Made by a program: the position numbers and the translations under genes
Shown here: positions 59,450-63,432 of the stretch, piece after piece
Layout of the letters: the number at the start of each line of letters is the position of its first letter
Numbering within the stretch: position 1 is the stretch's first letter
The notes under the pieces: generated by a model
Databases searched by the model: none
What the model was told of the DNA's origin: nothing
Seen by the model: the letters and a program-made list of their open reading frames with translations, nothing else
Source: Caprella mutica
Lineage: Eukaryota > Arthropoda > Malacostraca > Amphipoda > Caprellidae
Length of the DNA stretch: 64,000 bases
Reading direction: 5' to 3'
NCBI GenBank assembly: GCA_947561585.1
Contig: CANNZV010002490.1
Coordinates: forward strand, 47,883 to 111,882

Positions 59450-62400
59450 ATGGAGCAAGCACACTTTGAAAAGTTCATCATAGACGAAGAAATAACTTCT
59501 GCAGGAAACAGATGGAACTCATACATCAGCAGATTCAAAAATATGCTGACTGCATATAGCATCACTGATGATAATAGGAAGAAAGCGCTACTATTGCATT
59601 TTGCGGGAGAACAACTCTTTGAGATTTACAGGAGTTTCTCGTCAGAAGACACAAATGAAGCCAACTTCGACAAAATGACAGAGTTATTAACTGCGTACTT
59701 CAGTCCCAAGAAGAATTTGGAGTACCAGATTCATCTCTTCAGGAGGATAAAACAATTGGAGAATGAATCCATTGATTCATTCCATTCGAGACTCCGTAAA
59801 GTGGCTACAACGTGTGATTTCTCTGATCTCAATAGAGAAATCAAGACTCAAATTATTCAGAATTGCAACTCACAAAGACTTCGTCGAAAAGCACTGCGTG
59901 ACGACATGTCATTGAGTGATGTTTTAGCTGCTGGCCGATCATTTGAAATGGTGGAGAAACATGCTTTGGTGATGTAGCAGGGAGACTTCATTAACAAAAT
60001 CTCGAAGAAAGAAACTTCATTTCATTCGGGTAAAGAAAAGAAATGCTTCAGATGTGGGGGTAATTACCCTCATGCGACAAAATGCCCAGCAATGGGCAAA
60101 GAGTGTTCAAAGTGCAAAAAGATGAACCACTTTGCAAAAGTATGTAGATCTAAAAATTCAAGTAAAATACAGGAAATAAAAAGAAATGCTTCAACAGCTT
60201 CCGATGAAAGCTCAACTCACGAAGAATATGTCTTCGGATTGTAAAGAAATAGATCGAAGTAACCAAAAGTATAGATCTTATTAGAAAATATAGACACAGC
60301 ATTTATTATAGACACTGGTGCTTGTGTCAATATCATTAGCAAAAAGGTATATGAAAATATAAAAAAACACGTATTTTTGAAAAGAACAGAGACGATGTTA
60401 TATCCTTTCCAAGGAAACAAGCCAATTGATTTACTAGGATCATTCTATGGACAGATAAATCATCAAGGAAAGAAGGTTAAGGCTAAATTTTACGTTACTC
60501 AAAGCAATGAAAGTGGAAATTTGCTTAGTTTTAAAACAGCAGAGGATATTGGTTTAATTTAGTTAACATATCAAGTTAATGACATTGAAAGCATTATAAA
60601 TCAATATGGAAAACTTTTTAATGGCATTGGAAAATATTCTGGAGGACAAATAAAGTTACACGTTGATGAAGCAGTCAAACCTGTAACAATACCTCATCGT
60701 AGAATCCCATTTCACGTTAGGAAAAAGGTTGAAGAAAAACTGAAGGAATTAGAAAAATTGGACATAATAGAGGAAGTTGAAGGGCCAACACCATGGATTT
60801 CACCTATAGTTGTAGTCCCAAAACCAGGAAAAGAAGATGAAATTCGACTTTGCATCGATATGAGAGAAGTAAACAAAGCCATTAAGAGAGAAAGACACAT
60901 CACTCCAACAATTGACGACATCATTTATGATATGAACAATGCTACGATATTCTCAAAGTTGGATTTGAACCAAGGATACCACCAATTGGAATTGCACAAA
61001 GAAAGTAGATACTTGACAACATTCAGTACACATGTTGGATTGAGACGATATAAGAGACTAAATTTTGGTATATCATCAGCTGCAGAAACCTTCCAGCATA
61101 CTATTTCAACAATAATATCGAATATTCCAGGTTCGGTTAATATTAGCGACGATATCATCGTTTACGGCAAAACTGAAAGTGAGCATAACTCAAATTTGAA
61201 GAAAACCTTAGAAAGCTTATAACTCGCTGGTCTCACTCTAAACAAAGACAAGTGTAAATTTAACTAATCTAAAATAAAATTCTTCGGTTACATTTTCAGC
61301 AGTAAAGGAGTTCAGCCAGACCCAGATAAAGTTAAAGCTATTAAAAGTATGGAAAGACCAAGTAATGTGAGTGAATTGAGAAGTTTTCTAGGTATGATCA
61401 CCTATTGTGGGAGATTCATCAAAAATTTAGCAACTCTAACTGAACCATTAAGACAAGTCATCAAGGAAAAAAAATGGAGATGGAATGAGGAATGTCAAAC
61501 CACATTTCAAAAAATTAAAGACTCTCTCAGCATTGAAACTACATTTAACTATTTCGACAAGAATAACTAGACTATTTTAAGAGTAGATGCAAGTCCGTTT
61601 GGTCTAGGAGCTTTCTTAACCCAGCGAAATACCACAAATGGAGAAGAAAAAACTGTTAATTATGCAAGCAAATCCTTAGACTAGACATAATAACGTTACT
61701 CATAGATTGAGAGGGAGGCACTAGCTATTGTTTGTGGAATTGAGAAATTTCACATTTATTTGTACGGATAACCATTTACTGTTATTACTGACCACAAGCC
61801 GTTGGAAAAACTATTCAACAATCCAAGAGCTAAACTCCCTGCTAGAATAGAAAGATGGGTCTTAAGATGCTAGCAGTATGATTTCGATGTCAAATTTGAA
61901 CCAGGCTGCAACAATCCAGCTGACTATTTATCAAGACACCCAATTGCTAATACTAAACAGATAAATAGAGAAACAGAAAATGTTGAGAATCACATCAACT
62001 ATATAATTCAAAATGCTACTACACAAGCTATTCCCAAACAAATTATAGTGGAGAAAACTTGTGAAGATACTATTTTAGCTACATTGAAAAACATAATCAA
62101 TTCTAACACTTACGACACAAAGTTACTGAATAAAAATCAAAAAGAAGATTTAAAATGTTATCTGAAAGTGAAAGAAGAAATATGCTGTTCCAATGATGGA
62201 TTACTGCTACGTGGCACTAAGTTATTAATACCTACGAGCCTTCAGGCAGAAATCATTAATTTGGCTCACGAGGGACACCTGGGCATCGTAAAAACTAAAT
62301 AATTATTACGAGAAAAAGTATGGTTTCCAAAATTAGACGAAATGGTTGAACAAAGAATCAAAAATTGTCTAGAATGTCAATCATGTGTTGCTGATCACAC

Positions 62401-63432
62401 CAGACCTCCTGTGATGATGTCGCAATTACCTGAAGAGTGCTGGAGTCACCTATCTGCTGATTTCAAAGGACCACTGAGTGATGGCACTTACATTTTAGTA
62501 ATTATGGATGACTACTCAAGATATCCAGTGATAGAATTCACCAACACTTTGAAAGCAACCTCAATAATTCCAATTTTCGACAAAGTCCTCAGTGATTTCG
62601 GATTACCAAATGAAATAAGGACAGATAATGGAGCACCTTTTAATTCTCAGTATTTTTAAAATTACATGAAAGAGATGGGCATCAAACATAGAAAAATAAC
62701 ACCACTACATCCGCAAGCAAACGGAGAAGTTGAAAAATTTATGTGTAGCATTGGGAAAGTTTTGAAAACATCAAAAATTGGACTAAAGAATTGGAAATAG
62801 GAGTTATTTAAGTTTTTACGAAATTACAGATCTTGTCCTCACCTTTCCACTAAGATTCCGCCTTATGAGCTTCTACACAAACGGTAAATTCAGACTAAAA
62901 TGCCTTCTATCATTAACAAGCAAGCAGACTAAGAAAGAAAGTTTGAAGTCATTTTGAATGATATGAAAGCCAAAAAAAAATGAAATAATATTATGATAGG
63001 AAATGCAAAGAAAAGGAATATAAAATAAATGACTCCGTGCTAGTTAAGAAACAATCGATTAATAAATCTGAACCAGTTTATATTCCAAAACCTATGAAAA
63101 TTGTGAGTAAGAAAGGAACCATGATAACAGCAGTTGATGGAAACAAGACGATCACAAGAAATTAGACATGGTTCAAGAAAATATCTCCAGAAATTAAATA
63201 AACTACAAACCCCAAAAACGTGACAGAAAACCAGGAAAGCTATGACGATGATGATAATGAAACAATTACAACTGGAAAAAGTAACTCTAACAATCACGAG
63301 GATTAAAATAACGTAATATCAAATGAATTCAAATAACAAGTTAGTTTAGAAGTTCAAAATAGAAATGAAGAGTAAGCTGAGCCAAGAAGAAGTGAGAGAA
63401 TATCCAAACCTCCGAATAGACTTTAATATTGA
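59450..63432 (+). CDS. Gag-Pol polyprotein, apparently written in a UAA/UAG=Gln code
   Basis: ATG 59450. Order: Gag (RWNSYISRFKNML; ESIDSFHSRLRKVA), two zinc knuckles (CFRCGGNYPHATKC, CSKCKKMNHFAKVC, about 60045-60150), protease (IIDTGACVNII, 60310), RT (FSKLDLNQGYHQLEL; ISDDIIVYGK, 61150), RNase H (RVDASPFGLGAFL; TDHKPL), integrase (CLECQSC; SADFKG, RTDNGAPF, NGEVEKF). One frame throughout except one base apparently missing in an A-run at 62972-62980. 26 TAA/TAG codons cross it, starting at TAG 59975; TGA occurs in the coding frame only at 63430, after a typical gypsy C-terminus. Read with UAR=Gln it is about 1327 residues. Read with the standard code, only a 175-residue Gag is made. Confidence 0.85.

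Follow-up and report, generated by a model that had tools for sequence, protein, structure and literature searches.

Proposed glutamine decoding of UAA and UAG in the Pol, not the Gag, of Ty3/gypsy retrotransposons from a Caprella mutica assembly

A 64-kb stretch of contig CANNZV010002490.1 (C2490) from a genome assembly of the amphipod Caprella mutica, referred to here as the window, carries at 59258-63632 a 4.4-kb Ty3/gypsy long terminal repeat (LTR) retrotransposon whose coding frame contains 26 UAA and UAG codons (together UAR; TAR in DNA). Our analysis supports the existence of two coding regimes in one frame, i.e., a standard Gag closed by a UAR codon, and a Pol with UAR as glutamine (Gln) beside CAA and CAG (CAR), ending at UGA. 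The explanation that we favor, with a probability of roughly 0.8, is that suppressor tRNAs of the host decode UAR as Gln, so that Pol can be made, and that the UAR closing gag acts as a gate. Pol is under purifying selection through its TAR codons, and the assembly contains clusters of tRNA genes with anticodons cognate to both UAA and UAG. The initial annotation of the element, made from the sequence of the window, had assigned a ciliate-type code (NCBI table 6) to the whole element, and is partly supported.

Coding of Gag and Pol

All 26 in-frame TAR positions in the initial annotation were confirmed. The frame at 59450-62959 has 1170 codons with 11 TAA, eight TAG (i.e., 19 TAR) and no TGA, compared with 56-109 stops in each of the other five frames of the same interval, while the frame at 62983-63429 has seven TAR codons and is then closed by TGA at 63430, which is the first TGA in the coding frame, as had been stated. 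The expected share of TGA among one-step nonsense changes is 0.23-0.26, giving a probability of about 0.001-0.002 of finding no TGA among 23; the in-frame TARs without TGA therefore exceed chance. The one-base slip annotated near 62.97 kb, which separates these two frames, is present, but proved to be a defect of the window copy, since the frames are in register in 15 of the 18 copies that span it.

The element is a young, recently active Ty3/gypsy retrotransposon, with direct LTRs bounded by TG and CA, a target-site duplication in the 4-6 bp range, and the domain order protease-reverse transcriptase (RT)-RNase H-integrase. Pfam was run piecewise on the table 6 translation. The gag piece scored 23.3 bits (7.6e-5), just below the cut-off of 24.1; the protease piece was weak (0.01), although its DTGA motif could be read in the sequence, and the C-terminal piece had no Pfam match. 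The features are as follows:

59253..59257, no strand: left target-site duplication GAGGG, seen in the sequence and recurring at 63633-63637
59258..59430, forward strand: 5' LTR, 173 bp, TGTAATA...TATTACA, identical to the 3' LTR
59431..59444, forward strand: presumed primer-binding site, TTGGCGACAAAAGA, from the sequence
59450..60241, forward strand: gag (264 codons, zinc knuckle), in the standard code at the family level (Pfam, copies, relatives)
60242..60244, forward strand: TAA closing gag, the proposed leaky gate (comparison of copies and relatives)
60245..60622, forward strand: Pol linker and protease, DTGA at 60311, TARs at 60260, 60272 and 60560 (sequence, weak Pfam match)
60623..61366, forward strand: Pol RT, TARs at 61220 and 61265 (RVT_1, 1.2e-22)
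61367..61966, forward strand: Pol RNase H, seven TARs including 61703 and 61871 (RT_RNaseH, 4.4e-32)
61967..62959, forward strand: Pol integrase, TARs at 62300, 62657, 62798, 62885 and 62930 (H2C2, 2.3e-15, and rve, 6.1e-12, for the piece 62045-62959)
62983..63432, forward strand: Pol C-terminus, frame-displaced in the window copy, seven TARs and then TGA at 63430 (sequence)
63448..63459, forward strand: presumed polypurine tract (TTTGGGAGGGA region), adjoining the 3' LTR (sequence)
63460..63632, forward strand: 3' LTR, with no difference from the 5' LTR over 173 bp
63633..63637, no strand: right target-site duplication GAGGG (sequence)

A 501-base RNase H probe gave 32 matches in the assembly (903 Mb, 7200 contigs), of which six, including the window copy, were full-length at 100%. 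Twenty-seven further loci were taken, covering 30 of the 31 remaining matches; they comprised five full-length copies at 99.6-99.8% identity, others at 96-99.5% and, over their pieces, older copies at 77-95%, together with four relatives at 65-70%. When ten diverged copies were compared with the window copy, the ratio of nonsynonymous to synonymous change (dN/dS) in the Pol frame was 0.13-0.33. Pooled over the same ten copies, the corresponding ratio (pN/pS) in frame was 0.37 for gag, 0.33 for protease, 0.27 for RT, 0.23 for RNase H, 0.23 for integrase and 0.52 for the C-terminus, whereas in shifted frames it was 0.79-2.6 overall, 0.85-1.35 for RT, RNase H and integrase, and about 0.9 for integrase. 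Pol is therefore under purifying selection through its TAR codons. Thirteen conserved TARs, counting that of gag, lie upstream of integrase, and a constraint of this kind on integrase would hardly be expected if ribosomes did not pass them. In a second family at 60-61% identity (family 2), piN/piS was 0.29 in the RT-RNase H piece of 17 copies, all 17 of which had 12 TAR sites in common.

For the identity of the residue, TAR codons were written as X and the residue at each column was read from up to 120 relatives. Gln was found at 61703 in 120 of 120 relatives, at 61871 in 92 and at 62798 in 86, and was also the commonest residue at 61691 and 62300. A codon-by-codon profile likelihood returned the correct residue for 58 of the 59 sense codons seen at least five times. 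With this method, and with RT-RNase H and integrase pooled, Gln was the most likely residue for TAR, with a log likelihood (lnL) 6.3 ahead of lysine (Lys) at 13 sites in the window family and 9.0 ahead at 31 sites in the copy of family 2 on contig C984. Alignment of 882 Pol codons between the two families placed 16 window TARs opposite six TARs and three CARs, and 27 window CARs opposite six CARs and three TARs, while nine of 24 family-2 CARs were opposite Gln or TAR, against a background of 5-7% of codons. Because of these exchange counts we conclude that TAR acts like CAR, with noise towards Lys. Thus, recoded codons occur on Gln sites, as in suppressor-tRNA recoding, with some contrary columns that are considered below.

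Gag behaved differently. At the family level, the window-family gag has nine CARs and no TAR (counting 59975 in its family state), and the gag of the C984 copy also has nine CARs and no TAR, compared with 39 TARs and 25 CARs in its protease, RT-RNase H and integrase pieces (Fisher p = 0.0005 in family 2). The TAG at 59975, which had been taken as a Gln codon of gag, does not represent Gln in the family: among 18 other copies with data this codon was GAR in 15, TAG in one, AAG in one and GTG in one, and the homologous column is glutamate (Glu) in 46 of 56 sequences. Similarly, the TAA at 60242 is better read as the terminator of gag than as an internal Gln codon: it is TAR in every one of the 18 copies with data, the family-2 copy that was read has TAA there, and it coincides exactly with the end of gag in four of eight examined gag relatives from other sources. 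In the same assembly, a relative on contig C2433 (54% identity) has a stop-free RT-RNase H and a single open frame from gag into protease with no stop, its gag start being frame-shifted. Since the window copy is nearly alone in having TAG at 59975 and the frame slip, and gag is TAR-free, the recoding is confined to Pol. The proposal that UAR encodes Gln with UGA as the sole stop is therefore supported in Pol by the profile likelihood, TAR/CAR exchange and selection, but fails in gag, and table 6 does not hold for the whole element, since gag has no family-level TAR and closes at one.

Copies, Sister Families and Relatives

In a protein census of RT-RNase H, 94 of 3454 candidates were scored and 95 matches were listed. 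All eight full-length matches of the window family had four TAGs, five TAAs and no TGA, and some partial or older matches of the family carried TGA. Family 2 was represented by 17 full-length matches, with six to eight TAGs and eight to 11 TAAs, and by three partial ones, and none of the 20 had a TGA. Many gypsy elements at 37-54% identity among the matches listed were stop-free. In the C984 copy of family 2, stretches of the LTRs match without difference for 162 bases, there is a 5-base duplication, ATGCC, and the LTR is followed by the same TTGGCGAC that forms the first eight letters of the presumed primer-binding site in the window. By eye, the in-frame C-terminus of family 2 is similar to the displaced Pol C-terminus of the window copy. 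In a 67-row tree, in which the database proteins carried no clade names, the window family and family 2 were sisters with moderate support (SH-aLRT 85), separated by a path of about 0.95.

A third, decayed group was found on contigs C1222, C675, C520, C160 and C826. All five copies have TAR at one Gln column, and several other TARs are off Gln columns; no gag could be found next to the copy on C1222. In the third group and another group at 38-39% identity there are few TARs and an assignment to Gln is unclear: in L053 Gln was 0.5 ahead of Glu, and in L054, L055 and L056 the leading residue was Glu or alanine.

Identity to the nearest database relatives was 70% for gag, 59% for RT-RNase H and 64% for integrase (best 120, 120 and 68 matches listed, respectively), and those named among the matches listed came from animals, including cnidarians, molluscs and fish. 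They probably belong to the Mag-like or K02A2.6-like clade of Ty3/gypsy. They resemble the window element in domain order and in RT (59%) and integrase (64%) identity, and differ in being uninterrupted open reading frames (ORFs), although the database holds only ORFs, so that TAR-coded kin would escape it. Searches of viral contig and genome contig collections yielded no relatives. The gag relatives P0241, P0242, P0244 and P0245, which come from other sources, terminate where TAA 60242 stands. Among the intact ORFs listed there was no RT relative above 59%, so that these four may be TAR-coded too, or lie on short contigs.

Some features of the surrounding DNA may be recorded here. Inverted arms at 58990-59019 and 59227-59256 (90% identity) abut the insertion point and resemble a small miniature inverted-repeat transposable element (MITE), into the end of which the element may have jumped. 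Both flanks (58467-59013 and 63639-63931) contain a 31-base minisatellite and C-rich repeats of 16-17 bases, the C-rich unit being inverted. Elsewhere in the window, at 18575-19711, there is a long in-phase repeat ORF with SPEAVQPV units, open on both strands.

Suppressor tRNA Genes, the Proposed Switch and Competing Explanations

A probe based on the standard metazoan tRNA-Gln core identified 33 Gln genes, all with anticodon CUG or UUG and none of them a suppressor; in three stretches around such genes, ARAGORN called 14 Gln and three Lys genes. A broader probe, open to any tRNA bearing UUA or CUA as its anticodon, gave 214 matches (100 of them listed) and 53 with a reversed control, and included Lys-TTT-like matches in a shifted register as well as chance matches. 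It revealed clusters of a single 72-base body unlike the standard Gln body. ARAGORN assigned the anticodons tta, cta, tta and cta to four of these genes that were fetched, which scored 66-74 bits with the Rfam tRNA model (cut-off 29). Their stems are paired throughout except for one pair in L082, and their last base is T, as in the ordinary tRNA-Gln of the assembly. Four or five T residues lie shortly downstream of three of the four, a T-run being the usual RNA polymerase III terminator.

With a 34-place probe for this body and an open anticodon, there were 113 matches in the assembly and none with the reversed control. The 100 matches listed comprised 39 TTA, 21 CTA, 36 CTG, two TCA, one CCG and one TTG, and among them 23 contigs carried suppressor genes, 14 of these also carrying CTG genes. 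Probing with the 5' half of the CTG form gave 117 matches at up to three mismatches, at sites of both kinds. One CTG gene, called as tRNA-Gln, has six differences from a CTA gene over 72 places. The assembly therefore contains suppressor tRNA genes cognate to both codons found in Pol. Judging from their CUG sisters and from the residues in the TAR columns, these suppressors are probably charged with Gln; their expression, their use on the element mRNA and termination at the gag UAR are likewise putative. On contig C113, at 138641 and 181236, the same tRNA body occurs with the anticodon TCA, which would read UGA. A tRNA carried by the element itself was considered as the decoder and rejected, there being no tRNA gene within the window.

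As far as HSP70 shows, the host itself appears to use the standard code. Of 55 HSP70 matches listed, 52 had no in-frame stop, and five genes with C-termini EEVD, EEID or DEID, which we take to be of the cytosolic type, end in TAG, TAG, TAA, TAA and TAA; UAR was not found as a sense codon in this gene family, the one examined. The HSP70 type, the tRNA-Gln core and the relatives of the element all point to an animal as the host. On contig C1428, at about 41, 101 and 116 kb, there are HSP70-like matches of more than 500 codons with stops (two TAA; one TAA; one TGA, four TAG and three TAA, respectively), which could be pseudogenes or host genes under the same recoding.

We propose the following mechanism. 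The decoder would be the clustered host tRNA genes with anticodons UUA and CUA, whose body is common to CUG (Gln) genes on the same contigs. When suppressor tRNA is scarce, translation would end at 60242 and yield Gag alone, which is needed in bulk; when it is abundant, the gag UAR and all of the Pol UARs would be read as Gln, producing a Gag-Pol protein terminated by UGA. In one step, such a switch would account for the avoidance of TAR in gag, its tolerance in pol, the absence of UGA inside intact frames, and the use of both UAA and UAG. Of the two origins suggested in the initial annotation, i.e., a host suppressor tRNA and transfer from a ciliate, it is the former that has direct evidence, in the form of the clustered UUA and CUA genes that share their body with CUG (Gln) genes.

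An alternative is that the element is native to, or a recent arrival from, an organism with a nuclear code in which UAR is Gln (a ciliate, syndinian or similar) and is translated there. Table 6, in which UAA and UAG encode Gln and UGA is the stop, does open Pol, but is shared neither by Gag nor by the host-type HSP70 genes, in which UAR is a stop. The assembly is mixed, since seven of the twelve HSP70 loci fetched have C-termini that we take to be bacterial DnaK-like, and the contigs with host-type HSP70 genes (C385 and C751) differ from those with the element, so that a single organism is not proven. Against such an origin, the gags of both families have nine CARs apiece, lack family-level TARs and are closed by a TAR; copies at 77-99.8% identity and sister families occur in one assembly with many stop-free gypsies; on contig C1733 a window-family element accompanies a gypsy with one TGA and no TAR; contig C711 joins a copy of the element to a CTG gene of the shared tRNA body; and those relatives that have names are elements of animals. 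Families that share an assembly with gypsies lacking stops, and with HSP70 genes of the host type ending in TAA or TAG, can be explained without transfer from a ciliate, and we consider a foreign code improbable.

Marginally less probable again is that UAR is read as Gln without suppressors, by cis-directed processive recoding with normal tRNA-Gln, by release-factor depletion, or by partial U-to-C RNA editing. The Gag/Pol split and the single gate codon would suit a model in which ribosomes are licensed at that point, and, against mononucleotide shuffles, the 100 bases 3' of the gag stop show weak folding (z = -2.0 and -1.8), although windows centered on the stop gave 0.0 and -1.0. However, we saw no common sequence context around the 24 Pol TARs, and a single shared stop context was rejected; UGA, which would also be expected to open under editing or release-factor loss, is absent from intact frames; and tRNA genes cognate to exactly UAA and UAG are present in quantity.

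It is very unlikely that Pol is dead, with the copies moved in trans and the TARs being ordinary nonsense mutations of a broken master. The same assembly does hold a likely example of a broken master moved in trans, in the gypsy group at 38-39% identity, where nine matches have one TAG and three TAAs and one has two of each, and where Gln leads at one of four TAR columns in L054; there are also TGAs in older window-family copies. However, a dead Pol is at odds with a pN/pS of 0.23-0.33 through the TARs, with the absence of TGA from the window copy, the eight full-length family matches and the 20 family-2 matches, with a frame kept over 1170 codons, and with TAR/CAR exchange between families. 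C-to-T hypermutation, already disfavored in the initial annotation, was rejected as the source of the TARs because of their inheritance in copies and their exchange with CAR between families.

Several observations weigh against decoding by host suppressors. Although Gln does occupy the RNase H block positions 61703 and 61871, as initially annotated, it is the commonest residue at just five of the 18 TAR columns with data, and column 61688 is Glu in 113 of 120 relatives. In integrase alone, the lead of Gln was 0.5 over Lys in the window family and 0.3 over Glu in family 2, and in single family-2 RT pieces its lead over Lys was 1.6-5.3; family-2 TARs were opposite Gln or TAR in nine of 37 cases and opposite Lys in eight. 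The gag/Pol contrast in TAR use is weak in the window family alone (Fisher p = 0.044). Older copies have TGAs within the Pol frame (L018, L020 and L028-L031 together have 11), as well as non-Gln changes to and from TAR, as expected of decay. As for the tRNAs, the one CTG gene that was fetched has a worn acceptor end, and the suppressor body matches the standard tRNA-Gln of the assembly at 46-47 of 72 places, compared with 42-50 for other isoacceptors. Among the matches listed, no suppressor gene was on an element-bearing contig, the sole shared contig, C711, having a CTG gene. Finally, an organism whose own genes end in UAR would need a safeguard against suppressors in high copy; our guesses are restricted tRNA expression, tandem stops or release-factor specificity.

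Relation to Known Systems and Significance

To our knowledge, no nuclear sense use of UAA or UAG has been described in animals. In phages using code 15, late genes are recoded and early genes are standard, a split that resembles the one between Pol and Gag here. Among such phages, crAss-like gut phages read UAG as Gln by means of a suppressor tRNA in a host with the standard code, according to two reports (PMC10879173, PMC9523058), and are thus like the window element in that a mobile element reads as Gln a stop that its host keeps. The present case differs in that it involves an animal-type retrotransposon, that UAA and UAG are both used, and that the tRNA genes are elsewhere in the assembly.

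In murine leukemia virus (MLV), readthrough of a single stop inserts Gln and involves eRF1, and pol is otherwise stop-free. As in MLV-type readthrough, gag and Pol of the window element share one frame behind one UAR; unlike it, Pol contains 24 further UARs. One study describes the MLV pol as lying in the gag frame behind one UAG, which is read through (PMC5009743).

The planarian Schmidtea mediterranea has a high-copy SUP-TTA tRNA, with 17 genes at 52 loci, which is detected on northern blots and whose function is given as unknown in the accessible part of the report (PMC7962491). The probe printed there implies, in our reading, a Gln-like 5' end. Its sequence is unlike that of the suppressors described here, and that part of the report links it to no transposon and to no target beyond longer proteins in general (PMC7962491).

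Among the papers listed in our literature search, judged by titles and the beginnings of abstracts, there was none on a retroelement with split coding regimes and cognate UAA and UAG suppressors. The principle, i.e., a suppressor tRNA converting stop to Gln in a standard-code host, is known from phages; its combination with a retroelement appears to be new. We put at somewhat better than even the wider view that an animal nuclear genome has a conditional second code, in which dozens of Gln-type UAA and UAG suppressor genes exist beside standard-coded host genes, several retrotransposon families have adapted pol, not gag, to them, and the supply of suppressors switches Gag-Pol on, planarian SUP-TTA being another case. 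If this is correct, suppressor tRNAs of animals would be a working decoder used by mobile DNA rather than debris, and placing Gag and Pol under different codes would be a new means of setting the Gag:Pol ratio. The high-copy SUP-TTA tRNAs of planarians would also gain a testable role. It would serve as a warning, too, that ORF callers throw out such elements as dead.

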